A stretch of 64,000 bases of DNA from Fibrobacterota bacterium (GTDB taxonomy: Bacteria > Fibrobacterota > Fibrobacteria > UBA11236). The position numbers and the translations under genes were made by a program. Position 1 is the first letter of the stretch. Each line of letters opens with the position of its first letter. Below, in pieces: positions 25,214 through 37,671 of this stretch. The notes beneath the pieces were generated by a model. That model was given only the letters and a program-made list of their open reading frames with translations. It did no database searches and was not told where the DNA came from. The stretch lies in assembly GCA_947482115.1 (NCBI GenBank), contig CANKII010000001.1, positions 62,001-126,000 on the forward strand, given 5' to 3'.

Positions 25214-25396
25214 ATGAGCCATATTCAAGCCTTGGAAAATGAGATTGCCGCACTGAAAGAGGAACTTGAAAAGTTCGAACGCGGAAACAAATCCGCGGGT
25301 ACTCGGGCACGAAAGGTTCTTCAAAACATCAAGCGCGTAGCCCAGGATGTTCGCGTTTATATCCAGACTGCGAAAAAAACAGAAGAACCCAAGTAA
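25214..25396 (+). CDS. Hc1/histone H1-like small DNA-binding protein
   Basis: A 60-residue protein beginning with a heptad-like helix (MSHIQALENEIAALKEEL) and continuing FERGNKSAGTRARKVLQNIKRVAQDVR. The phrase ERGNK-(S/A)AGTR-x-RK is the hallmark of the chlamydial Hc1 / Bacteroidetes histone H1-like family, which compacts DNA. Here the lysine-rich tail is short (KKTEEPK). A strong ribosome site GGGGAGG lies eight bases upstream. It stands alone between its own promoter and a terminator, suiting an abundant nucleoid protein. Confidence 0.75.
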   Translation: MSHIQALENEIAALKEELEKFERGNKSAGTRARKVLQNIKRVAQDVRVYIQTAKKTEEPK

Positions 25397-25471
25397 GGTG
25401 CTTAACCTGCGTCCTCTTTGATTTTTCCGCTTCGTCGTTGGCGAGACATTTTCTTTAGTTCAAACCTTATG

Positions 25472-25500
25472 GCCGGCTTTAACGAGTCGGCTTTTTGTTT
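25472..25500 (+). terminator. Rho-independent terminator after the Hc1-like gene
   Basis: GCCGGC (25472-25477) pairs with GTCGGC (25486-25491, one G-T pair) around an 8-base loop and is followed by TTTTTGTTTT. The rest of the 303-base gap to the next gene holds only a predicted promoter (25606). Confidence 0.75.
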
Positions 25501-25699: not shown

Positions 25700-27013
25700 A
25701 TGGGGAAAAGAACACATATGCTCAAGCACTTGAATGTGGTGCTCCTCTTTACGGGTGCCTTGGCGTTTCAAGCCGCGCAGACCAAAACTCTTCGCGTACC
25801 TTCCCAATTCCCCACGATTTCGGCCGCTTTGTCCCACGCGGATTTCGGAGATTCTGTAAGTGTTTCTCCTGGAAGGTATTCTGAAAACGTGGTATTGGTA
25901 CAGGGTGTAGTCTTGAAAGGGACGGATGCGCTCAAGTGCATTATTGACGGAATGCGCCGTGGTCCTGCCGTTTATGGTGTCGCGGGTTCTGAAATTTCGA
26001 ATTTTACCATTACGAATGGAATAGACGGTATTCTTTGCGAGAACGCGTCCCTTCATATTCATCACAACTGGATTATTGACAATGAAGGTGCGGGAATCGG
26101 CGCTTTCCTTTCGCTTCCCCAAATCGACAATAACGTGATTTATGGCAACCGTTGGACGGGCGTGCTGGTGTGGGGCGCAAAGTCTCTGGACACCAAACTT
26201 GAAAACAACGTGATTCTGCGGAACGGATACAGCGGTATTTCTCTGCGCGGCCCCACCCGCATCGTGGTTCGCAACAACATTCTCAGCGAAAATGTGGAAT
26301 ACGGAATTTTTTCGGATCCCGCCGCAGGCCAATCTCAAATCGTTTACAACGACATCTACAAGAATGTGATGCCGTTTAATCGCTATACCAAAGTCAACAA
26401 GTCCAATATTTCAGTGGATCCGATGTTTGTGAGCGCCAGCTTGGGTCACCCAAACTTTTTCCCCGCATCCAGGTCTCCCGTCATTCGTCGTGGTTATGAG
26501 CAGATGGACATTGGGTTGATGGATCACGAGATGCCTGCCGAAGTCGTAGTACCGGAACCAGCTCCGGCTCCCGTTGTGGTTGCCGCACCCGAACCCGTTG
26601 TCGTTCCTCCTCCGCCACCTGCTCCGGTTGCCCCCCCTGTTGTTCCAGCTCCGAAGGTTGTTGTGGCTCCTACAGACAGTTTTGTGATGGATGGATTGAA
26701 TTTTGCCCCTGGAAGCTCCGAATTGGCGGCCGCTTCTGCCGGAAAATTGGATGACGTCGCAGAGCAGTTGAAGAAATTTCCCGGCAGCCGGTTTGAGATA
26801 TCAGGCCATACTGACAACCTGGCCTCGGACAAGGTCAACATGAAACTTTCCGTGGATCGCGCCAATGCGGTTCGTGATTACCTCGTCAAAAAAGGTGTGG
26901 ATTCACAGCGTCTCGTAGCCAAGGGATACGGTTCTTCCAAACCCAAAGCGGACAATAAAACCGCCGCGGGACAGGCCTTGAACCGCCGCATTGAATTCCA
27001 TCGCATCAAGTAA
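25700..27013 (+). CDS. Outer-membrane fusion: parallel beta-helix domain plus OmpA peptidoglycan-binding domain
   Basis: A 437-residue protein. After a signal peptide (MLKHLNVVLLFTGALAFQAA) comes a right-handed beta-helix (about residues 30-260) with typical turns: NVVLVQGVVLKG, ISNFTITNGIDGI, IHHNWIIDNEGAGI, NNVIYGNRWTGV, NNVILRNGYSGI, NNILSENVEYGI. A Pro/Val-rich linker (about 275-325) joins it to an OmpA C-terminal domain with GHTDN and LNRRIEF, the residues that hold diaminopimelate of peptidoglycan. It should anchor a surface or periplasmic helix to the cell wall. The start may be the ATG at 25718 instead of 25700. It leads an operon with TPR, ExbB/D and AgmX-like genes. The fusion is unusual. 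Confidence 0.85.
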   Translation: MGKRTHMLKHLNVVLLFTGALAFQAAQTKTLRVPSQFPTISAALSHADFGDSVSVSPGRYSENVVLVQGVVLKGTDALKCIIDGMRRGPAVYGVAGSEISNFTITNGIDGILCENASLHIHHNWIIDNEGAGIGAFLSLPQIDNNVIYGNRWTGVLVWGAKSLDTKLENNVILRNGYSGISLRGPTRIVVRNNILSENVEYGIFSDPAAGQSQIVYNDIYKNVMPFNRYTKVNKSNISVDPMFVSASLGHPNFFPASRSPVIRRGYEQMDIGLMDHEMPAEVVVPEPAPAPVVVAAPEPVVVPPPPPAPVAPPVVPAPKVVVAPTDSFVMDGLNFAPGSSELAAASAGKLDDVAEQLKKFPGSRFEISGHTDNLASDKVNMKLSVDRANAVRDYLVKKGVDSQRLVAKGYGSSKPKADNKTAAGQALNRRIEFHRIK

Positions 27014-27055
27014 CCGGACGGCAACATCCGCACGCACAACCAGGGAGTGGACGCC

Positions 27056-29248
27056 TTGAACTATCGAATTGCCTTCCTTCCGATTCTGGCCTGCACCGCA
27101 ATCGGATTCGGGCAGATGCCCTACAAGCCCAATGCCTACCAGCAGAACGACTGGTTTGCGGAGTATGGGGAAAACATCGCCGCCTATGTGAACCCTGCCT
27201 CCATTGCCGAGGCGGATCAAATTGAGGTGAGCGCTGCGGCTTATACGACTCTTTCCGGTCAGGCCGGCCAGGAGTTCATCAGCGCCGTTCATCCCTTTGG
27301 ATACAACCATACGGTCAACATCACTTATTTTGAAAACGGCTCCCAGATCGACGGTTCCAACGCCTCGTATCTTGAGAACGCCTATTCCTTGGGATACGCC
27401 TTGCGCATTCCTTCGCTTCACAAATTGGCTGTCGGCGCAAACTTTACCGTCTTTCAATACGATCCTTTTGGAGCGTTAGGCGGAATACAATACAGCTTTG
27501 GCGGCGATTTGGGATTGACTTACAACCCCTTTACCACATCGCGTTATGGCAAGCTCCTGCTGGGTGTGGCCGTGCAAAACGTTTTACAGCCGAAGATCAA
27601 ACGGGTCTCCGGTGGAAGCGATGCGATTCCCCGGAATATCAATACCTCCCTGTTCTGGTGCGGCTTTAACAGAAAACTGGAGTTGGCCGCTTCCGCCAGT
27701 GTTGTGGACATCAGCCATCAGGGTTCAGGCAAGGGCAATCAGGTTGTTCCTTCCGGACGGGTCACTTATTACGTGGCACCGTGGGCGGGAGTCAAGGTGA
27801 AATATTCCAAGGAAGGTTATCCTGTCATTGGTTTGACCGCCAACGTGCAGCGGTTCAACCTGTTCCGTTATTTGCAGCTGGATGTGGACATGTCGCATGA
27901 TGCGCTTTCCGCCAATAACGAGGAACGCGGGTTCATCTGGAACGTGCGAGCCACCACTCGTCTGGGACCTACGCGCGAAGAGCGCATCGGTGATGCTCGC
28001 TACGAGCGTTTGAAAACAGAACCCGAGGAAGCCTATCGTGAGGCCATGCGGCTTTATCTGGCCCGGAAATTCCTGCCGGCTGCGTATGCCTTCGGCAAGG
28101 TTACCAGCAAGTATCCCACCTTCCATCTGGTGGATCAGGCCGCTTTTTACAAGGGCAAGGTTTTTGAGAACCTGCGGATGAATCAGGCTGCAAGGGATGT
28201 TTATGACGAAGCGCTGCGCAAGTATACGGACTCCGAACTGCGTCCCAAGTACATGTTCCAGTTGATGAATCTGAACTACAAGGAAGGGAAGTTCGAAGAA
28301 GCCTCCCGTTTGCACGAACAAATCGTGAATCTTTATCCGGAATCCGACGTCAAGTCCGATGCCGATTATATCCGGGGTCAGATCAAGTATGCGAAGAAGG
28401 ATTACACCGGAGCGATTACCCTGCTTTCCTCCATCACTTCCGGAAATGCCAATTACGCTTACGCGCGTTACACCATGGGTGTCTCTTATGCGAATCTCGG
28501 GAAAATGACAAATGCCGAAGCGGCGTTTGGAGATGTCGCACAGATTAAGCCGTCCAACGCTTCCGAACAGGAAATGAAGGATGTTGCCACCGTCAAATTG
28601 GGCCACATCAATTTCGGCAAACCCCAGCTCAAGAAAGCTGCGGAGTACTATGCCTCCGTCTCGGCCAACAGTCCCAAGTATGACGAGGCATTGCTCGGTC
28701 TGGCGTGGGCCTTCCTGAAGGAAAAGGATTTCAAGCACGGCGCCGATTATGCCGAGGCGATTATCACCAAAGCGCCCAACAGTCTGCTGATTCCCGAAGC
28801 ACATCTTCTCTTGGGGTATAGTGCGTACTTCCAGAAAAATTTCGATGCCGCTACCGCAGAGTTTGACAAGGCTGTGGATCTGTCGGATAAAAAGGCCGCT
28901 TCCATCGGAATGTTGAAACAGCAGAGAGGTGCGGACGTGCTGACCAGCAGTGAATTTGCTGCGGTTCAAAAGGAAGCATTGGAGCTTGCCAACCAGCTTC
29001 CCACCGAACACGTGGTCGAGAAGCAGAACAAGCTGCGTCCCCGGTATGACGCGCTGTCTGCCAAAATCGAAAAATATTTCGATTACCAGCGGGATTCAGA
29101 GCGTTATGAAAAATTCCTTCAGGACCGAAACCGGGTTGTCAAGGACGCCAAGTTTACCAAGGCCACAATTGGCAATATCAAAGCCGGTTCAGGCGGCGGA
29201 AATCGACCTCCCTCTTCGCAGGATTTGAAAGGTCTTGAAGTTCAGTAG
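27056..29248 (+). CDS. Outer-membrane beta-barrel fused to TPR repeats
   Basis: About 730 residues. A signal peptide (NYRIAFLPILACTAIGFG) precedes an N-terminal part of roughly 290 residues rich in alternating strands (YVNPASIAEADQIEVSAAAY, LAVGANFTVFQYDPFGAL, YGKLLLGVAVQNVLQPKIKR) typical of PorV/UPF0164-like barrels. The C-terminal part is TPR (YREAMRLYLARKFLPAAYAF, YKEGKFEEASRLHEQIVNLYP, LLLGYSAYFQKNFDAATAEF). A Gly/Pro-rich tail ends the protein. TTG at 27056 is chosen: AGGGAG lies eight bases upstream, whereas the in-frame GTG at 27047 overlaps that sequence. It is probably an outer-membrane anchor for the complex encoded around it. Confidence 0.75.
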   Translation: MNYRIAFLPILACTAIGFGQMPYKPNAYQQNDWFAEYGENIAAYVNPASIAEADQIEVSAAAYTTLSGQAGQEFISAVHPFGYNHTVNITYFENGSQIDGSNASYLENAYSLGYALRIPSLHKLAVGANFTVFQYDPFGALGGIQYSFGGDLGLTYNPFTTSRYGKLLLGVAVQNVLQPKIKRVSGGSDAIPRNINTSLFWCGFNRKLELAASASVVDISHQGSGKGNQVVPSGRVTYYVAPWAGVKVKYSKEGYPVIGLTANVQRFNLFRYLQLDVDMSHDALSANNEERGFIWNVRATTRLGPTREERIGDARYERLKTEPEEAYREAMRLYLARKFLPAAYAFGKVTSKYPTFHLVDQAAFYKGKVFENLRMNQAARDVYDEALRKYTDSELRPKYMFQLMNLNYKEGKFEEASRLHEQIVNLYPESDVKSDADYIRGQIKYAKKDYTGAITLLSSITSGNANYAYARYTMGVSYANLGKMTNAEAAFGDVAQIKPSNASEQEMKDVATVKLGHINFGKPQLKKAAEYYASVSANSPKYDEALLGLAWAFLKEKDFKHGADYAEAIITKAPNSLLIPEAHLLLGYSAYFQKNFDAATAEFDKAVDLSDKKAASIGMLKQQRGADVLTSSEFAAVQKEALELANQLPTEHVVEKQNKLRPRYDALSAKIEKYFDYQRDSERYEKFLQDRNRVVKDAKFTKATIGNIKAGSGGGNRPPSSQDLKGLEVQ

Positions 29249-29278
29249 CCGGAAAACGCGGGAGAACGGGGTTCCTAG

Positions 29279-32200
29279 ATGAGTAATTGGAAGTCCGGGG
29301 CGATGGTTCGCATGAATCGCGCCTTGGTTTTATTGTGGATCGCGGGCTTGGTCAGCGCAGTTTGGGCGGACAAGCTCGGGGATTTGAAGAAGCGCAAGGG
29401 TGAACTCGATCAAATTGCGGCAAGTTGTGCCGCTATGCAGGAACCCGGGAAGAGCGCCTGTCTCGCTGAACGCCAGAAAAAAGTGACGGCCTACAAGGCC
29501 GACTTGGAAAGCTACAAGGCGGATTTGAACAAGGCTTCCTCCACTCAGGATGAAGCGCAAGATTACGCGAATTCCATTGCCATTCTCGACAAAAGCATCA
29601 AGGAATTTACCGAATATCTGAACAGTTGCACGGATAAATCCGAACGTTGCGGTTCCGCTTTGTTTCAGGCTGCGAATCTGACTCTTCGAAAAGAGGAGGA
29701 CATCTTTCTCGCTACCCAGGCAAAGTACGAAAAGGACATGCAGCGCTGGGAAGATCACGACAAGAATGGTGCCGAGCCCGTTTCACCCCGTCGCAATCAC
29801 ACGGTTTCCCTTGGCCTTTTCCAGCGCTTTTTGAACGACTATCCCAATAACCGGGAAGTGCCGGATGTCTTGGCCCAGTCGGCTTTTATCGCTGATATGC
29901 AGGGTAAGGATCAGCTTTCCTTTGAGTTTCTCAACAAGCTCGTTGTGGGCTGGCCTCATCATCCCCAGGCCGTGAAGGCGCATCTTCGTTTGGGGGAATA
30001 CTGGTTCCTCAAGCATGAATATTCCAAGGCCGTTGAACAACTCAACGCCGTGCCTCTGGATTACGCGGGCAATGAAGCAGGCTTGGCCCTGTATCGTCGC
30101 GCGGAATGCTATTACAGTCTGGCTTCCTATGAAGAGGCCGCAAAATGGTTTTATGAATACGTGTCGCGTGTCGATGCCGGCAAGATACGCGGGGGAGATC
30201 AGCGCGACGAAGCCATGTCCTTCATGGCCGTGGCGTGGGCGGATATGGACAATGGTTTTGAAGTGGCGGAAAAGTTCCTCCGTGAACGTGGAAATCCGCC
30301 TTGGGAAAAGGACGTTTATTATCTGATTGGAATCAAGAACAAGTCGCATGATCGCCTTGACGAAGCTGTCAAAGCTTTCCGTTTTCTTTTGACCAAGGAT
30401 CCAACATACGTGAAGGCTCCTTCCGCGGATCTCGCCATTGTCGAAATATTGATGTTGCAGAAGAAATTTGATGAGGCACAGAAAGCCCGTCTGGATCTCG
30501 CAAACCGTTACGCAGAGGGTTCCGAATGGTTTCGCAAGAATGCTGCCGACAAGGGGGCCGTTGAGGAAGCCTCCAAAGCCGTCCATCTTGCGCTTTATCA
30601 GATTCCGGTTTATTACCACACGAAAAACGAGGCGGGGGATTCCGATGTTACCCTTCTCAAAAAAGCCGAGGAAGGTTACAGGAATTACCTGAATCGCTTT
30701 CCCAATGAAGTTTCATGGGATGTGTTTCAAGTGCACCAGCATTTGGCCGTGCTTTATGGAAAACTCAAGGTTTATCCCAAGGCTGCGACGGAATGGCGTT
30801 GGTGTGCCACATCGGATACGGCCAAGATGGGGGTTTTGCCCAAGGACAAAAAAAATCTGGTCTCCCGTCAGGATGCAGGATACAACGCCGTTTACATGAC
30901 GGATGAGGCAAGAAGAGCGGCCATTCCGACCGTTTATCACAATGATACTGCGGCTGCATTCAAGGGCCCTGAGACGAAGGCCTTTTTGGAGTACGTGAAC
31001 TGGTACTCTGAACTTTTTGGCAATTCGCCCTCGGTCGCGGATCTTGCCTACAACGCCGCTATTTTGCACTACGAAGCAAAACAATACGACGAGGCGATCA
31101 AACCCTTGAGCGATCTGATTGCCAGATTTCCAAACCATCCTCGCATCGTGTTGATCCGTCGCGCTTTGGCCCAGTGTCTTTTGGAAGGTGGCCAGTATGA
31201 CGAGGCCGGGAAACAGTTCGCGATATTGCAAGGCAAGCTATGCCCGTTTGACAGTCAATGCACCGAGATCAAAAAATCCATGGCTGCGACTTTATATAAA
31301 CAGGCCGAGAAGCAGCGCAAAAGCGGGGATTTCGTGGGTGCTTCACAGCAGTATGCAAAACTCGCTTCCACCTATCGCGATGTCGAATTTGCCGACAAGG
31401 CCATGTTTGAAGCAGGTGTCAGTGCCGATTCTGCCGGGAACCACGATGAAGGGGCTCGTACACTGCTGAGAATTTCGCAGGACTACCCCAACTCAAAGCT
31501 CGGTCTTAAAAGCATGCTCCGGGCAGCCTCCATTTACATGAATGCGAAAAAATATCGGGATGCCGCAGACGTGTTTCTCAAGATTCAAATGAAATTTCCA
31601 GAAGATTCTCTCGGAGGCATTCAAGCACTTGGCTGGGCAGCTGATGCTTATCAAAAGTTGCCGAGTCCGCGTCAAGCGGGGCAGACCTTTGAATCCGCCT
31701 TCCGCCTTTATCCCCGCAGTGAAAAAACGGCAGGGTTCCTCTATAACGCAGGGCAACTTTACGAAGATTCCAAATGGTATACGGATGCCATTGGGGATTA
31801 CAAACAGGTGTACGAAAATTATCCTGCCAGTCAGTATGCGCCGGAAGCCATGTTTTCGGTGCCGCTGCTGATGGAGAAGCTCGGAGATTCCACCGGAGCC
31901 ATTCTGGCGTATCAGGCATTTGTTGCCAAGTACCCCGGAGAAAGAACCAAGGTTATTCAAGCTCGAACCAGCATCATGCAATCGCGTTTGAACAACGGCA
32001 AGCGTTTTGAAATGCAGGGCGAAGAGAAGCAGGCTCTTGATTTATACGAGCAATGCATTTCGTCCCAGGAAGGGAGTGAAATTCCTCCTGCAATTGCCTC
32101 CGAAGCGGCCTATCGCGCGGGAGATGTCTATTACCGGAAAGTGGCGAGCATTCGCTTGGATGGAACCAAAGCTCAAAACGACGGACGCACCAAAACCATG

Positions 32201-32845
32201 CAGGAAAACCTCGTAACCGCCATTCAACATTATGCGAAGGCCGTGGGATTTGCAGAAGAGGAATGGGCCCTTCGAGCCACCTTGCGCATGGGAGATCTGT
32301 TCTCCACCATGGCACTTATTTATGACAATCAGCGTGTGGCGGGCCTTTCCGGTGAAGAGCGTTTTAAAATCACCATCCAGAACAAATTTTTTGTGCCCAA
32401 CTTTCTTGATAAGGGGAAGGAGATTTACAAGAAGAATCTCAACGTGGGTTTGCAGCAGAATATTTCCAGCCCTTGGATCGACACAACCGGAAACCGTTTG
32501 ATGGAGACCTATGCCTTTAAAGGCCGGGCCCTCGAAGACTTGGGGCAGTTATTTTTGCAATTCCCCCTCCCTGAAGATGCGACTCCCGAAGATCTGGCCC
32601 CTGTTCGGGCACAGCTAAAAGGGGAGTCTGACAAGCATAGGGCAGAGGCGATTGAAAATTATCGCAACGCATTGGATACGGCGCAGATCTATTTTATTGA
32701 CAATCCGGTCCGTGGCCGCATTATGAACAGGCTCCGTGAGCTCGATCCAACTGCCCCGCAACTCCAATTGCAAGTGCCTGTCAAACCTAAAATTGCGCCG
32801 AATCTAGATACAAAGTCAGCCCCTGCCGGCAGCCAAAAACAGTAA
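29279..32845 (+). CDS. Giant periplasmic TPR protein
   Basis: A 1188-residue protein with a signal sequence (MVRMNRALVLLWIAGLVSAVWA) and more than ten TPR-like units across its length, for example YLNRFPNEVSWDVFQVHQHL, YNAAILHYEAKQYDEAIKPL, RALAQCLLEGGQYDEAGKQF and PEAMFSVPLLMEKLGDSTGA. An early charged coiled coil lies at about 30-100. In layout it resembles the periplasmic TPR scaffolds of the Myxococcus Glt complex. The gene is 30 bases after the barrel-TPR gene. Start uncertain among ATGs at 29279, 29303 and 29312. Its exact family is not recognised. Confidence 0.75.
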   Translation: MSNWKSGAMVRMNRALVLLWIAGLVSAVWADKLGDLKKRKGELDQIAASCAAMQEPGKSACLAERQKKVTAYKADLESYKADLNKASSTQDEAQDYANSIAILDKSIKEFTEYLNSCTDKSERCGSALFQAANLTLRKEEDIFLATQAKYEKDMQRWEDHDKNGAEPVSPRRNHTVSLGLFQRFLNDYPNNREVPDVLAQSAFIADMQGKDQLSFEFLNKLVVGWPHHPQAVKAHLRLGEYWFLKHEYSKAVEQLNAVPLDYAGNEAGLALYRRAECYYSLASYEEAAKWFYEYVSRVDAGKIRGGDQRDEAMSFMAVAWADMDNGFEVAEKFLRERGNPPWEKDVYYLIGIKNKSHDRLDEAVKAFRFLLTKDPTYVKAPSADLAIVEILMLQKKFDEAQKARLDLANRYAEGSEWFRKNAADKGAVEEASKAVHLALYQIPVYYHTKNEAGDSDVTLLKKAEEGYRNYLNRFPNEVSWDVFQVHQHLAVLYGKLKVYPKAATEWRWCATSDTAKMGVLPKDKKNLVSRQDAGYNAVYMTDEARRAAIPTVYHNDTAAAFKGPETKAFLEYVNWYSELFGNSPSVADLAYNAAILHYEAKQYDEAIKPLSDLIARFPNHPRIVLIRRALAQCLLEGGQYDEAGKQFAILQGKLCPFDSQCTEIKKSMAATLYKQAEKQRKSGDFVGASQQYAKLASTYRDVEFADKAMFEAGVSADSAGNHDEGARTLLRISQDYPNSKLGLKSMLRAASIYMNAKKYRDAADVFLKIQMKFPEDSLGGIQALGWAADAYQKLPSPRQAGQTFESAFRLYPRSEKTAGFLYNAGQLYEDSKWYTDAIGDYKQVYENYPASQYAPEAMFSVPLLMEKLGDSTGAILAYQAFVAKYPGERTKVIQARTSIMQSRLNNGKRFEMQGEEKQALDLYEQCISSQEGSEIPPAIASEAAYRAGDVYYRKVASIRLDGTKAQNDGRTKTMQENLVTAIQHYAKAVGFAEEEWALRATLRMGDLFSTMALIYDNQRVAGLSGEERFKITIQNKFFVPNFLDKGKEIYKKNLNVGLQQNISSPWIDTTGNRLMETYAFKGRALEDLGQLFLQFPLPEDATPEDLAPVRAQLKGESDKHRAEAIENYRNALDTAQIYFIDNPVRGRIMNRLRELDPTAPQLQLQVPVKPKIAPNLDTKSAPAGSQKQ

Positions 32846-32904
32846 CGCTTTTAAGCCGGACTGCAACAGAATAGACACGTTTTTCTTGAAAATTCCCAAA
32901 AATA

Positions 32905-32935
32905 TGGTGCGAATTCAACAAAAAGACGGTATAAT
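32905..32935 (+). promoter_or_regulatory. Predicted internal promoter upstream of exbB
   Basis: A perfect -10 TATAAT (32930-32935) lies in the 192-base gap before exbB, with only a weak -35 candidate (TGGTGC, 32905-32910, spacing 19). It could allow exbB onward to be expressed apart from the TPR genes. Confidence 0.4.
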
Positions 32936-33037
32936 ATTCATGAAATTTGGCTGAACCCAGCGATGGAACATCTAACGTGGGTTCGAGCTTGGCCATTTTT
33001 TTAGCTTACCCGTACCAACTCAAACGAGAGGATAAAA

Positions 33038-33649
33038 ATGTCACTGCTTCTTAAAGGTTTTAATGGTGAAGGCCGCTTCTACATGAGCGTGATCCTTTTT
33101 CTCGGTCTCGTCTCCCTCGCGATTATCGCCGAGCGATTCATTTACATCTTCCTGAAATCCTCCAAGGGTCGTGCGGAATTCATGCGCAATGTGGCCAAGT
33201 TGCTGCAAGGCGGGCGTGTGGACGAGGCCAACCGGCTGGCTGCAAGTCAGGGAACCCCTCTGGCTCGCATCATCGCTGCCGTGTTACAAAACAAACCCAA
33301 GGGCCAGGCTGCCGCTGAAAGAGCGGTTGACGAAGTGTTCCTGACCGAAGCTCCTCGGATTAACCGTTACCTGAATCTGTTGCCTGCGCTCGCGAACATT
33401 GCCATGCTTTGCGGCCTGCTGGGCACCATTTTCGGTCTGATTCTGGCTTTCGATGCTGTGGCCAATCTTCCGGCTGCACAACGTCCTGCCGCTTTGGCCA
33501 ATGGTATCTCCATCGTTATGGTGAACACCTTCACCGGTTTGGCCGTGGCCATTCCGGTTTTGCTGTGCCATGGCCTTCTTGCCATGCAATCTGAGCGGTT
33601 GCAGGAAGAGATGGAAGAAAAATCCGTCAAAGTGATGAACCTGCTCTAA
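33038..33649 (+). CDS. exbB: ExbB/TolQ/MotA-type proton channel protein
   Basis: A 203-residue inner-membrane protein with three transmembrane segments (about residues 14-35, 115-140 and 158-182). The conserved family core is intact: LNLLPALANIAMLCGLLGTIFGLILAF, then ANGISIVMVNTFTGLAVAIPVLL. Together with ExbD partners it forms a proton-driven motor that moves periplasmic proteins. GAGAGGA precedes the ATG. The two ExbD-like genes and a TonB-like gene follow directly, as in Tol, Exb and Agl systems. Confidence 0.92.
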   Translation: MSLLLKGFNGEGRFYMSVILFLGLVSLAIIAERFIYIFLKSSKGRAEFMRNVAKLLQGGRVDEANRLAASQGTPLARIIAAVLQNKPKGQAAAERAVDEVFLTEAPRINRYLNLLPALANIAMLCGLLGTIFGLILAFDAVANLPAAQRPAALANGISIVMVNTFTGLAVAIPVLLCHGLLAMQSERLQEEMEEKSVKVMNLL

Positions 33650-33708
33650 GAATTGATGCCCATTGAAACCGTGCGTTTCCGACAGGGAACGCACTTGCAG
33701 GGAAAAAA

Positions 33709-34518
33709 ATGAAGAAATCAAGTGTGAAAGAGCACAAAGCGAAGGAGTTGGATCTCCTTCCTGTGATGAGCCTGTTTTCGATTCTGGTGACCATTGTGAT
33801 CACGATGGCATCCTTCGAAAAGCTTGGCATTCTGGAGTTATGGCTTCCGGAACGCAGCCAGGCGATGACGAGCCAGTCCGAGGATCAAGATCTTGGCTTG
33901 CTCAACCTTGCGGTAGTGATTACGGATAACAGCATTACCGTGGGTGCGTCCAACGGTTTTCAGCCCGCAGTTTATTACCAGGAGGAAGTCCAGTATCGCA
34001 GCCGTTCGGACCAGAACGTGTTCCGGAAGATCTACGTGAAAGGCGAGAAGGTTTATTCATCAACGGATAAAAAGCTCATGGGCCTGAACGAGAAGGAACT
34101 CATTTTCCTGAACGTGGTCGTCAAAAAGGATTCCTCTGATCCCGGCACTTACCTGTTTGCCGCACAGGATCACGAAGGTGAGCCGTTGATGGACACTTCT
34201 GGAAACTGGTATAAGGATATTCCTCCCGTGGGAGCTCCATACCGGGCCGTGGGTGACGAGACCATTCTCCACATGAACGAGGCGACACGGGTCACGTGCA
34301 AGATTGACAAGTTGAGTGCCTACTATGAGGTCGCGAGGGTTTTGGAAAAGGTTCACAAAATGTACAGCCGGCTTTCACCGCTCCCCACGGACGTGGATGA
34401 CATCGTCATTCTGGCCGGAGAGGATGTGATTTATGACAAAATCATCCAGATGATGGATGCAGCCAAAGCCGCCGGATATGATCGCGTGGCATTATCCCTG
34501 ATGGGAGGGGCAACCTGA
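33709..34518 (+). CDS. Enlarged ExbD-like protein lacking the membrane aspartate
   Basis: A 269-residue protein with one N-terminal transmembrane segment (ELDLLPVMSLFSILVTIVIT) and a periplasmic domain ending in a typical ExbD fold (YDKIIQMMDAAKAAGYDRVALSLM). It is about twice the normal ExbD size because of an insertion (about 70-195). At the position of the proton-carrying Asp of ExbD/TolR (P-x-I-D), the sequence reads PVMS, so the Asp is replaced by Ser21. It therefore probably serves as a structural or regulatory partner of the following ExbD, which keeps the Asp. Its stop overlaps that gene (TGATG). Confidence 0.8.
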   Translation: MKKSSVKEHKAKELDLLPVMSLFSILVTIVITMASFEKLGILELWLPERSQAMTSQSEDQDLGLLNLAVVITDNSITVGASNGFQPAVYYQEEVQYRSRSDQNVFRKIYVKGEKVYSSTDKKLMGLNEKELIFLNVVVKKDSSDPGTYLFAAQDHEGEPLMDTSGNWYKDIPPVGAPYRAVGDETILHMNEATRVTCKIDKLSAYYEVARVLEKVHKMYSRLSPLPTDVDDIVILAGEDVIYDKIIQMMDAAKAAGYDRVALSLMGGAT

Positions 34519-35096
34519 TGCTTGGAGGAATTGAAAAAACGTCACACGGTGGCGGCCATTCGCATTCGATTCATGATGGGGGAGGGCATCCTGAAGAAGG
34601 CGGCGCACCCAAGAAACGCGGGATTAAAAAACAGGAAGAGGCTGGCCTCATCATCACGTCGTTGATCGACGTGTTCGTGATCGTTCTGGTATTCCTTTTG
34701 CGCACTATTTCTGCCGAGGGGAATTTGCTGACTTCGGCTGATAATCTGGTTCTTCCCATGTCGGCTCATGCCAGATCTCCAACCGAGGTCTCCATGATCA
34801 TTTTGGGAACCTCCAACAAGATCACTGTCGATGGCGTTGAAATTGTGGAAACCTCTGCCGTCCGCAAACAGGAACCGTTGTTGATCGATGCCATGGCCAA
34901 GGTTCTCATCAAGAAACATGATGAGGAAAAGAAGGCGGAAATGCTGGGTGTCATCAAGGATGCTTCCGGCAAGGTTGTGGTTCAGTTCGACAAGAATCTG
35001 CCTTATGATGTTGTCACCAAGGTGATGGCCACATGTGGTTATGCGGGTTATAACAACATCAAGTTCGCCGTGTTGCGCAAGAATGAGGAGGGCTAA
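34518..35096 (+). CDS. exbD: ExbD/TolR-like protein with histidine-rich N-terminus
   Basis: A 192-residue single-pass protein. The membrane segment ITSLIDVFVIVLVFLL carries the functional Asp51, and the C-terminal periplasmic domain ends with the family pattern LPYDVVTKVMATCGYAGYNNIKFAVLR. Residues 10-24 are rich in His and Gly (HGGGHSHSIHDGGGH), which is unusual on the cytoplasmic side of ExbD and could sense or bind metal. It overlaps the preceding gene by one base and is followed after one base by the TonB-like gene. Confidence 0.9.
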   Translation: MLGGIEKTSHGGGHSHSIHDGGGHPEEGGAPKKRGIKKQEEAGLIITSLIDVFVIVLVFLLRTISAEGNLLTSADNLVLPMSAHARSPTEVSMIILGTSNKITVDGVEIVETSAVRKQEPLLIDAMAKVLIKKHDEEKKAEMLGVIKDASGKVVVQFDKNLPYDVVTKVMATCGYAGYNNIKFAVLRKNEEG

Positions 35097-35097
35097 G

Positions 35098-36075
35098 ATG
35101 TCGACGAATAAAAAGCCTTCCCAAGCTTCCAAGCCTTCGAAGGATCCCTTCATCCAAAAGTTTGAAGTCGAGTCCGATGCACGTCTTTTCCGTTTCATGG
35201 GTGTGTTCGTTCTTTTGGGTGCTGCGTTTGTCTCCTATACGATGACTGTGAGTTCGATTATTCCAGGTGTGCTTCAGACGCACAACAAGAAGGAAATTTC
35301 GGAAAAGGTCAGCGTGGTGAAGTTGGGCGAAGTCAAGAAGGAAGAGGAAAAGAAAAAAGAGAAGCCCAAGGAAAAGACTCCTCCTTCATCCCATGAAGGG
35401 GGCGGTGCCAGAGCCCGAGGTCATGGAAACCCCAAGGCTGTGGCAACTCAGGCTGCTTTGAAGATGATTACTTCGAGATCGGCTTCCAACGCCCTTTCCG
35501 GTTACACCCTGATGGCTTCCAAGTTCACCAAGGATATCGACAAGGTTCTCAACGGTGTTTCCGGTTTGACCAAAACGGGGACAACCCGCATCGGAGGCCG
35601 GAAAGGTATGGCGGGTACCGGTGGATTCAATGAGGGATTTGCCAGTGGTACGCCGGGTGGTGTGGATGATCTTCTCGGCGGATTGTGGGGCGGCGGAGGT
35701 GGTGGCGGTCTAAGTCTGACTGCCAAGGGCGGAGCCGGTCTTCAAGCGCCGAAAGCGTCGGATATTGACTTGGGTTCGGATGGCGGTTCACGTTCCACTG
35801 AATCCATTATCTCGGTGATTCGTCAGCACACACCGGGGTTACGCCACACGTTCGAAAAGTATTTGAAGCTCCAGCCGGGTTTCAAGGGCAAGGTGTCCTT
35901 CCATTTCATCATTGCTCCCAGCGGTTCCATCATTGAATTGACCATTGTTTCCAGCACTACCGGAAACAGTGACTTCGATCAAGAGATACGCGACAAGGTC
36001 AAAACTTGGCGTTTCGAACCGACCAAGGGCAAGGGAAATGACGCTGTGAACGTACCCTTCAATTTCTCCGAATAA
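35098..36075 (+). CDS. TonB-family protein with AgmX/PglI C-terminal domain
   Basis: A 325-residue protein. Residues about 38-58 form one membrane anchor. The periplasmic part has a Lys/Glu/Pro stretch (KKEEEKKKEKPKEKTPP), a Gly-rich linker (GGLWGGGGGGG) and a C-terminal AgmX/PglI domain: IRQHTPGLRHTFEKYLK, GKVSFHFIIAPSG, SSTTGNSDFD, KTWRF, PFNFSE. This domain is the TonB-like end of gliding protein GltJ/AgmX and of many TonB paralogs. It likely carries ExbB/ExbD energy across the periplasm to the TPR, barrel and OmpA partners. GAGGAGGG precedes the ATG. Confidence 0.88.
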   Translation: MSTNKKPSQASKPSKDPFIQKFEVESDARLFRFMGVFVLLGAAFVSYTMTVSSIIPGVLQTHNKKEISEKVSVVKLGEVKKEEEKKKEKPKEKTPPSSHEGGGARARGHGNPKAVATQAALKMITSRSASNALSGYTLMASKFTKDIDKVLNGVSGLTKTGTTRIGGRKGMAGTGGFNEGFASGTPGGVDDLLGGLWGGGGGGGLSLTAKGGAGLQAPKASDIDLGSDGGSRSTESIISVIRQHTPGLRHTFEKYLKLQPGFKGKVSFHFIIAPSGSIIELTIVSSTTGNSDFDQEIRDKVKTWRFEPTKGKGNDAVNVPFNFSE

Positions 36076-36095: not shown

Positions 36096-36130
36096 AAAAA
36101 CCCGCGGTGTCCCATCGCGGGTTTTTTATT
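36096..36130 (+). terminator. Rho-independent terminator ending the trans-envelope operon
   Basis: AAACCCGCG (36098-36106) pairs perfectly with CGCGGGTTT (36116-36124) around a 9-base loop, followed by a T-rich run. It separates the AgmX-like gene from the lipoprotein-mreB cluster. Confidence 0.9.
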
Positions 36131-36155: not shown

Positions 36156-36605
36156 ATGTTTAAAACATCGACATGGGGGAGTAGATGGGCTTTAAGCTTG
36201 GTTGTTGCCTTGGGTTTTGGAGTCTTGTTACAGGCCTGTGGTTCGCCTCCCAAGGAAATGCAAAGCAAGCTTCAGGAGATTGGTAGGGCGGATCTCGCCT
36301 TCATCATAAGTGAATTTTCAGAACAAACCCGTCACGATGCTGTTCTGGCCAAGCCTTATTTTTTGGTGGATGAGTATCAAGAATTCAAGGGAGATACCGC
36401 CCGGGTTTTTCAGGCCTATGCCTCCCTGGTCTTTTTTTACCTCGATCCTTCTCTGGATCTCTGCCAGGTTCGCAAATACCGGTACAATCGCTCTGCGAGG
36501 GTTTGGGAGCGCTTTGAGGTGGTTCTGGAGCATTTCCCACCCAAATATGCAGGTGGTCAGGTGAATGGGGATTCCTCGCTTCCCTCAGGGGCGGAAAAAC
36601 CCTGA
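36156..36605 (+). CDS. Small lipoprotein upstream of mreB
   Basis: A 149-residue protein with signal sequence and lipobox LLQAC (cleavage before Cys28), then a mixed alpha/beta body with no recognised domain (YQEFKGDTARVFQAYASLVFFYLDPSL, YRYNRSARVWERF). AAAGGCG precedes the ATG. It is 43 bases upstream of mreB on the same strand and may share its transcript; a link to cell-wall elongation is only suggested by position. Confidence 0.7.
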   Translation: MFKTSTWGSRWALSLVVALGFGVLLQACGSPPKEMQSKLQEIGRADLAFIISEFSEQTRHDAVLAKPYFLVDEYQEFKGDTARVFQAYASLVFFYLDPSLDLCQVRKYRYNRSARVWERFEVVLEHFPPKYAGGQVNGDSSLPSGAEKP

Positions 36606-36648: not shown

Positions 36649-37671
36649 GTGTTCGGATTACTTTCCAGTGACATAGGTATTGATTTAGGGACGGCTAACA
36701 CGCTTGTTCATGTCAGCGGTCGCGGTATTGTCGTAAATGAGCCCTCGGTGGTGGCCGTTGATCGGCGGACCAACCGGGTGTTGGCGATCGGCACCGAGGC
36801 CAAGGCGATGTTGGGGCGTACGCCGGGAGAAATCATCGCCGTGCGTCCGATGAAGGATGGCGTGATTGCCGATTTTCAACTGGTGGAAAGCCTGCTGACG
36901 CGTCTCATTAAAACGGCGCAGAAATATCCGCTCTTTTTTCTTCGGCCTCGCATTGTGATTGGTGTTCCTTCCGGCATTACCGAAGTGGAAAAGCGCGCCG
37001 TATTGGATGCCGCACGCAAGGCCGGGGCCCGCGAAGTGCATCTGGTGGCCGAACCCATGGCGGCGGCGATTGGCATGGGCGTTCCCGTTGAGGATCCATC
37101 CGGTAACATGGTGATCGACATCGGTGGTGGCACGACTGAGATTGCCGTCATTGCGTTGTATGGAATCGTATGCGACACGTCGGTACGGGTGGGTGGCGAT
37201 GAAATGGACGAAGCCATCATCAGTTATCTCAAGAAGAAATACAACCTGCTGATCGGCGAAGGCATGGCGGAAAAAATCAAGATGCAGATCGGCGCCGCAT
37301 TTCCCCTTGAGCGGGAACTCGAGATGGATGTGAAGGGCCGTGATTTGGTGGCGGGTGTTCCTCACACGCTTAAAATCAGTTCTGCAGAGATTCGCGAGGC
37401 GTTGACGGAACCCGTCAACGCCATTGTGGAGGCTGTACGGCGGGCTTTGGAGCAGACGCCCCCGGAACTTTCCGCGGATCTCATGGACAAGGGAATTGTG
37501 ATGACCGGCGGGGGTTCACAACTCCGCGGCCTGGACGCTCTTCTTCGTCAGGAGACGAATCTTCCGGTCAACGTGATAGATGATCCCATGGTATGCGTTT
37601 GCAAGGGAACCGCGCGCATTCTCGAGGACATGGGGAAGTATTACAAGGTTCTCATGGACTCCCAACGCTGA
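36649..37671 (+). CDS. mreB: Rod-shape-determining protein MreB
   Basis: A 340-residue bacterial actin that organises lateral wall synthesis. Nucleotide-binding motifs are present: IGIDLGTANTLVHV (phosphate 1), VIDIGGGTTEIAVIAL (phosphate 2) and MTGGGSQLRGLD (adenosine). GVPSGITEVEKRAVLDAARKAGAREVHLVAEPMAAAIG is nearly canonical, though split here for brevity. GTG start with AAGGTG upstream. It heads the order mreB-mreC-mreD-mrdA-rodA. Confidence 0.97.
   Translation: MFGLLSSDIGIDLGTANTLVHVSGRGIVVNEPSVVAVDRRTNRVLAIGTEAKAMLGRTPGEIIAVRPMKDGVIADFQLVESLLTRLIKTAQKYPLFFLRPRIVIGVPSGITEVEKRAVLDAARKAGAREVHLVAEPMAAAIGMGVPVEDPSGNMVIDIGGGTTEIAVIALYGIVCDTSVRVGGDEMDEAIISYLKKKYNLLIGEGMAEKIKMQIGAAFPLERELEMDVKGRDLVAGVPHTLKISSAEIREALTEPVNAIVEAVRRALEQTPPELSADLMDKGIVMTGGGSQLRGLDALLRQETNLPVNVIDDPMVCVCKGTARILEDMGKYYKVLMDSQR

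Follow-up and report, generated by a model that had tools for sequence, protein, structure and literature searches.

A seven-gene operon of a bacterium of the phylum Fibrobacterota probably codes for a machine of the Agl/Glt 'core' type that spans the cell envelope, is driven by protons and would exert force on a surface complex holding the cell to polysaccharide. Its motor comprises two ExbD proteins, the first of which lacks and the second of which carries the transmembrane aspartate in every locus compared. The operon is located in the window, by which we mean the whole stretch of 64,000 nucleotides that was analysed. The corresponding genome (2.7 Mb, 99% complete) belongs to the class Fibrobacteria. 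The seven open reading frames, named P1 to P7 here, are intact and co-directional on one strand at 25700-36075, and are listed in the following together with their downstream neighbours.

25700..27013, + strand: P1, secreted right-handed beta-helix protein with a C-terminal OmpA (peptidoglycan-binding) domain, 437 aa
27047..29248, + strand: P2, predicted 14-strand FadL/PorV-like outer-membrane barrel followed by periplasmic TPRs, 733 aa, start codon GTG
29279..32845, + strand: P3, giant TPR protein of the periplasm, 1188 aa; a signal peptide is apparent on inspection
33038..33649, + strand: P4, ExbB/TolQ/AglR-type motor subunit, 203 aa
33709..34518, + strand: P5 (ExbD1), Asp-less ExbD, 269 aa
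34518..35096, + strand: P6 (ExbD2), ExbD with the transmembrane Asp D51 (SLIDVF), 192 aa
35098..36075, + strand: P7, GltG-like transducer
36096..36126, + strand: intrinsic-terminator-like hairpin, stem of 14 bp, T tail
36156..36605, + strand: H149, small putative lipoprotein between the operon and mreB
36649..37671, + strand: mreB, context gene outside the machine

The start of P7 was corrected to 35098; a GTG codon at 35035 would overlap P6. Gene content and order agree with those given by the first-pass annotation, which had been made from the sequence alone: the frames are intact in place, and the searches with Pfam and NCBIfam profiles for ExbB, ExbD, AgmX, OmpA and TPR matched in the expected genes. 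The operon is also bounded by terminator-like hairpins, since a second stem at 25471-25492 lies on its 5' side, although this simple pattern is often met by chance and was found only slightly more often than in shuffled sequence (20 found compared to 15 expected). Just 5' of the operon, positions 25214-25396 encode a histone H1-like Hc1 protein of 60 aa (PF07432, 62 bits), and this gene is retained in one congener (G023) despite the absence of the operon.

For P1, both the beta-helix (PF13229, 61.1 bits) and the OmpA domain (PF00691, 86.7 bits) were recovered, and an orthologue is found at the same position in most of the phylum. Compared to the Pal model P1 reached 59 bits at a cut-off of 125, which argues against a Pal-type lipoprotein. 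The barrel half of P2 showed no family match in Pfam or NCBIfam. Its AlphaFold model (pLDDT 81.8) comprises 14 long strands at residues 59-306 followed by TPR helices at residues 310-715, and Foldseek matched it to FadL (2r4l, E 1.1e-6) and to PorV of the type IX secretion translocon (6h3i_F, E 2.3e-6). The barrel-TPR fusion named in the annotation is borne out in this form, with a barrel predicted by AlphaFold and Foldseek and TPRs identified by Pfam. The match of P2 to the GltC model (33 bits) runs through the TPRs alone, and generic YbgF matches are stronger. P3 consists of TPRs throughout (Pfam TPR families) and showed no match to the GltD model; its closest named relatives are Fibrobacteria/Fibrobacteres MAGs, and a contig scan with P3 gave near relatives only.

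In genus g2 of family f1, in f2 and f3 and in other classes, P7 is followed by an eighth gene, P8, for a conserved beta-barrel-like protein of ~420 aa, which is probably an outer-membrane barrel as judged from its sequence. P8 was found in 4/4 searched genomes of other genera and was absent from all four genomes searched of genus g1, to which the window belongs. The annotation had described the operon as a reduced form of the Myxococcus complex; this description holds in another sense, namely that the genus has lost the eighth barrel gene relative to other Fibrobacterota.

The motor subunit P4 matches the MotA_ExbB family (PF01618, 80.7 bits), and both channel threonines, T130 and T164, are conserved and invariant in the orthologues wherever the sequence is complete. 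P7 comprises one N-terminal transmembrane helix, a charged and glycine-rich periplasmic linker and a TonB-like C-terminal domain of the AgmX/PglI type (NF033768, 73.5 bits, cut-off 40). Its match to the GltG model NF033760 (64.8 bits, equivalog cut-off 650) covers GltG positions 413-646 only, and neither an FHA domain (Pfam search) nor a GYF domain was found in P7. TonB_C was also matched (33.5 bits), but the AgmX/PglI and GltG models fit far better than the TonB models. In P7 and 17 orthologues, the GltG and AgmX/PglI models were both matched (18/18), the latter at E<=0.001 and the former with a best value of 2.3e-32. Outside the class Fibrobacteria, P7 carries an extra N-terminal cytoplasmic domain (loci L051, L055, L057, L060-L062, L064, L065, L067, L068), which by eye resembles the C-terminal domain of ribosomal protein L7/L12.

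When 57 ExbB sequences were placed in a tree, the 36 orthologues of P4 formed a single clade (support 99/98). The neighbours of this clade (100/95) are the ExbB of the Vibrio alginolyticus plasmid pMBL96 and the ExbB of a second-type module in genome G064; because of long branches in the tree, the deeper joins are to be taken as unsure. The TolQ and the TonB-system ExbBs of the window genome fall outside the P4 clade. This genome holds a separate operon with TolQ, TolR, a TolA-like protein, TolB, Pal and CpoB, as well as two further ExbB-ExbB-ExbD-TonB-TPR systems. The latter (loci L090 and L092 on contigs C2 and C6), with a long first ExbB, show the layout of TonB systems of marine gammaproteobacteria. 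No gene for TolB, for a lipoprotein Pal or for a TonB-dependent receptor was found in the P1-P7 operon. The first-pass annotation had proposed an energised trans-envelope machine of Agl-Glt composition and had named two outcomes that would speak against it, a lack of conserved gene order, or a grouping of the motor with pure Tol-Pal or TonB systems together with unrelated TPR genes. Instead, the order is conserved, the GltG model is matched in all P7 orthologues and the ExbB stands apart from TolQ and the TonB-system ExbBs, so that the proposal is supported.

The proton site of ExbD, TolR and MotB proteins is an aspartate in the transmembrane helix. Both P5 and P6 match the ExbD family (PF02472; 29.6 and 55.9 bits, cut-off 25.4), and P5 of the window carries a serine (S21) at the position of this aspartate. 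The 34 aligned ExbD1 sequences showed asparagine (16), glycine (11), serine (3), alanine (3) or cysteine (1) at this site, and two further ExbD1 sequences from f3 showed alanine, so that aspartate is missing at 36/36 loci. ExbD2 carried the aspartate in 34/34 aligned sequences and in the two f3 sequences, and thus also in 36/36. Six other tandem ExbD pairs (one Vibrio plasmid, plasmids of Thioclava and Tritonibacter, two Paracoccus plasmids and the G064 module) each contained exactly one aspartate (6/6). The pairs outside Fibrobacterota are a small sample, since a single ExbB sequence served as the query, and a single bacterial family accounts for four of the five operons on plasmids. Single-ExbD control systems showed the aspartate in 8/8 cases. 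None of the titles and abstracts found in the literature describes such pairs, and the rule of an Asp-less ExbD1 next to an Asp-bearing ExbD2 is new in this analysis.

The top Foldseek match of P5 was the periplasmic domain of TolR, which is a weak match (E 2.2e-3); matches of P5 to MreB/actin folds had low TM-scores and were rejected as noise. In the comparison with plasmids, ExbD1 matched only the pMBL96 operon and a second copy of it, and this weakly (E 0.2, 44% over 36 residues), and the P7 query gave no match. The operon on pMBL96 (L117, 3316-10502) is of a similar plan and includes a barrel: it comprises the barrel, two hypothetical proteins, two small proteins, ExbB, an Asp-less ExbD, an Asp-bearing ExbD and a TonB-like protein. 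An AgmX domain was expected in its 318-aa protein, which showed no match. Plasmid NZ_CP013487.1 carries the same ExbB and Asp-less ExbD as pMBL96. On the Thioclava, Paracoccus and Tritonibacter plasmids (L119, L132, L133, L134), the operons consist of ExbB, an ExbD with Asp, an ExbD with Asn and a hypothetical protein, and some of them adjoin DUF1036 genes, an M23 peptidase or tssH. The G064 module (L131, 4110-6522) comprises a 1288-aa protein, ExbB, an Asp-less ExbD, an Asp-bearing ExbD and a TonB-like protein. Extra matches of the Asp-less ExbD kind, in frames of 160-200 aa or ~440 aa, occurred in many genomes outside the class Fibrobacteria.

The one-plus/one-minus pattern in 36 loci and six other pairs suggests an asymmetric rotor with a single aspartate. 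In the simplest reading, the ExbB pentamer would enclose an obligate P5:P6 heterodimer that has a single proton site. As a tentative generalisation, for which the chances are somewhat less than even, the axle encoded by operons with two ExbD genes may be an obligate heterodimer in which a single aspartate can be protonated. This would give an asymmetric 5:2 rotary motor, in which one subunit would deliver the power strokes and the Asp-less subunit would have a structural or steering role. For AglQ and AglS of M. xanthus, the transmembrane aspartate is predicted in both proteins, and it was stated as unknown whether they form hetero- or homodimers (PMC9389320).

P3 was matched in 98/101 Fibrobacterota genomes, including a few with only weak TPR matches, and the ExbD1 profile matched in 97/101, 88 of them over the full length. 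In the loci with a long enough contig, which cover most of the families sampled, the order P1-P2-P3-ExbB-ExbD1-ExbD2-P7 and the orientation were unchanged, so that the search for this gene order in other genomes suggested by the annotation had a positive outcome. Exceptions are family f5 and some other genomes, where P1 and P2 were unrecognised beside P3, and f3 (G088, G091), where P4-P7 are present and P3 was unrecognised. This conservation of order and orientation goes beyond chance. Compared to the congener G025, the proteins of the window showed amino-acid identities of 67-88% with synonymous sites near saturation, which indicates purifying selection on P1-P7.

Throughout the class Fibrobacteria, mreBCD-pbp2 follows the operon where contigs allow this to be seen, and H149 travels with mreB. 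The first-pass annotation had placed the start of mreB within 600 bases after the terminator and, based on the dependence of Myxococcus motility on MreB, regarded this as a sign of kinship. The short distance is confirmed by the mreB start at 36649, but the lipoprotein gene H149 intervenes. For other classes, mreB was not seen in the stretch fetched downstream of the operon. Furthermore, P1-P7 and H149 are cleanly absent from two of the genus's four genomes, namely G023 (98% complete) and G100 (87%), in which a single contig runs from tpiA-secG-psd-H280-H291 (plus the Hc1 gene in G023) into mreBCD-pbp2; neither an ExbD1 nor an ExbB of the P4 kind was found elsewhere in these two genomes. Since the adjacency is limited to one class and mreBCD is kept where the operon is gone, it reflects class-level synteny and no functional link. 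The argument from MreB dependence thus falls, and mreB was dropped as a candidate functional partner.

GH9 cellulases were found in none of the four genus g1 genomes (G000, G025, G023, G100) and in all 16 other Fibrobacterota tested. Fibro-slime proteins were missing from three of the four congeners, and one was found in the window genome. Without GH9, the genus appears to be a non-cellulolytic, genome-reduced lineage. We take this pattern to mean that a polysaccharide-related system is decaying in a genus with small genomes; at n=4, this is an association and not a test.

The cluster FSU_2396-2404 of Fibrobacter succinogenes S85 appears to be the counterpart of the operon, based on gene order, domains and protein sizes. 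FSU_2396 is annotated as OmpA, FSU_2397 and FSU_2398 as TPR proteins, FSU_2400 as ExbB, FSU_2401 and FSU_2402 as ExbD and FSU_2403 as TonB family (PMC4619616, PMC6851124), with sizes of 56, 84, 147, 23, 32, 18 and 32 kDa (PMC4619616). One proteome lists FSU_2396, 2401, 2402 and 2403 in cellulose-grown cells only (PMC4619616). In another study, the abundance of the cluster was raised on cellulose and FSU_2400-2403 were read as a TonB-type cellodextrin importer (PMC6851124). In the sheep rumen, the eight genes of FSU_2396-2404 were highly expressed in vivo, and FSU_2396, 2397, 2078 and 2502 were proposed to form a four-protein complex in outer-membrane vesicles, where FSU_2502 is a 180-kDa cellulose-binding fibro-slime protein (PMC8092306). 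Eight genes is the number predicted by the P1-P8 pattern of the phylum. Since the counterpart is reported to be cellulose-associated and highly expressed in the rumen, with its P1 and P2 equivalents in a proposed complex with a cellulose-binding protein, adhesion to polysaccharide is a likelier function than the motility considered in the annotation. For motility there was no positive evidence. In F. succinogenes, studies link the corresponding genes to the degradation of cellulose and adhesion to it (PMC6851124, PMC4619616, PMC8092306). No motility or adhesion experiment on this operon was found in the literature.

Altogether, the following mechanism is the most likely. A pentameric ExbB channel (P4) would enclose a dimeric axle, most likely composed of one P6 (Asp) and one P5 (Asp-less), and proton flow through P4 would turn or tilt this axle. 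The single-pass P7 would pass the motion on across the periplasm and the wall to P3 and the TPR half of P2, which would act as scaffolds. From there it would reach the barrel of P2 in the outer membrane, in other genomes that of P8 as well, and P1, which may grip the peptidoglycan of the wall via its OmpA domain. The output would be force on a surface complex of adhesins or cellulose-binding proteins holding the cell to solid polysaccharide, and neither nutrient import nor a Tol-Pal function. In favour of such an adhesion machine, the genus with loss of P8 and of the operon also lacks GH9 cellulases. Against it stands that the window genome keeps the seven genes without GH9 and with one fibro-slime protein only, that G025 keeps them without any fibro-slime protein, and that the f5 genomes have P3-P7, no fibro-slime proteins and no recognised P1/P2.

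The importer proposed for FSU_2400-2403, a TonB-type energiser for cellodextrin uptake across the outer membrane, would account for the ExbB, the ExbD proteins, the TonB-like C-terminus of P7 with its TonB_C match and the increase on cellulose (PMC6851124). It is nevertheless unlikely, given that the AgmX/PglI and GltG models suit P7 far better than any TonB model, that the genome has two separate TonB systems whose ExbBs are excluded from the P4 clade, that the operon lacks a receptor gene and that the same three envelope genes precede the motor in most of the phylum. The original authors themselves found no MalA-like receptor (PMC6851124). Similarly improbable is a true gliding motor, in which an Agl/Glt-like force along MreB-linked tracks moves cells on surfaces. 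The GltG-like transducer, the motor with two ExbD proteins and the neighbouring mreB in the class Fibrobacteria point in this direction, but mreBCD persists in two congeners that lack the operon, and the sequence fetched downstream of it in other classes does not contain mreB. For an MglA-like GTPase, a search of the window genome with the Arf family (PF00025), which is broad and gives a weak test, matched only inside larger frames and revealed no stand-alone small GTPase frame. Moreover, according to Luciano et al. 2011, group A genes supplement the core for gliding in M. xanthus, and the core itself occurs in non-gliding bacteria (PMC3169522).

The OmpA domain, the ExbB/ExbD proteins and periplasmic TPR proteins that match the CpoB/YbgF models would also fit a second system of the Tol-Pal kind, which stabilises the envelope or helps in division. 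We give this explanation little weight, since a complete Tol-Pal set lies elsewhere in the genome, the operon lacks TolB, P1 is no Pal-type lipoprotein and two congeners have cleanly lost the operon.

Fibrobacterota play a major part in degrading cellulose in the rumen, and a force-generating adhesion machine would bear on how they hold on to cellulose. The F. succinogenes cluster, which has been described partly as cellodextrin import and partly as a vesicle complex, is better read as a single energised envelope machine, probably related to the gliding core of Myxococcus. Furthermore, the ready-made Asp-less partner makes the dimer question of the AglQ/AglS type and the need of a 5:2 motor for both aspartates directly testable.

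Among known systems, the operon resembles the eight-gene cluster FSU_2396-FSU_2404 of F. succinogenes S85, which appears to correspond to P1-P7 plus one gene at the P8 position, the latter being missing from the genus of the window. With Tol-Pal, the operon shares a proton-motive-force motor of the same superfamily, an OmpA domain and TPRs, but it has neither TolB nor Pal, coexists with a separate Tol-Pal system and is dispensable. The likeness to type IX secretion is confined to the PorV-like fold of the P2 barrel; the motor belongs to the ExbB/ExbD family, and the operon contains no GldL/GldM. According to the accessible text of Luciano et al. 2011, a group B 'core complex' of GltD, E, G and C with AglRQS is encoded by a single operon in gammaproteobacteria, in Geobacter and in one genome of the Fibrobacteres, was probably transferred from Deltaproteobacteria to Fibrobacter and was extended by group A genes for gliding in M. 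xanthus (PMC3169522). The operon described here agrees with this core in combining TPR proteins, ExbB, two ExbD proteins and a GltG-type protein, and a Fibrobacteres genome was already included there; it differs in its phylum-wide occurrence with P1, P2 and usually P8, and in the Asp-less ExbD, which the accessible main text does not describe. Based on P7, the gene content and this precedent (PMC3169522), the assignment as a candidate machine of the Agl/Glt core type is supported. An ExbB/AglR homologue adjoins two ExbD/TolR homologues, and the transducer carries an AgmX/PglI C-terminal domain above the cut-off of its model, but a full-length GltG with a cytoplasmic FHA domain is not present (64.8 compared to 650 bits). 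Like the gliding (Agl-Glt) and spore-coat (Agl-Nfs) machines of M. xanthus, which consist of AglRQS with GltG or NfsG, the operon combines an AglR-type ExbB and two ExbD proteins with a GltG-type AgmX/PglI transducer, TPR scaffolds, outer-membrane barrels and an OmpA-fold component. Unlike Agl-Glt, its transducer has no FHA or GYF domain, one of its ExbD proteins is Asp-less where AglQ and AglS are both predicted to have the aspartate (PMC9389320), and its barrel-TPR and beta-helix-OmpA fusions are encoded together with the motor in one operon.
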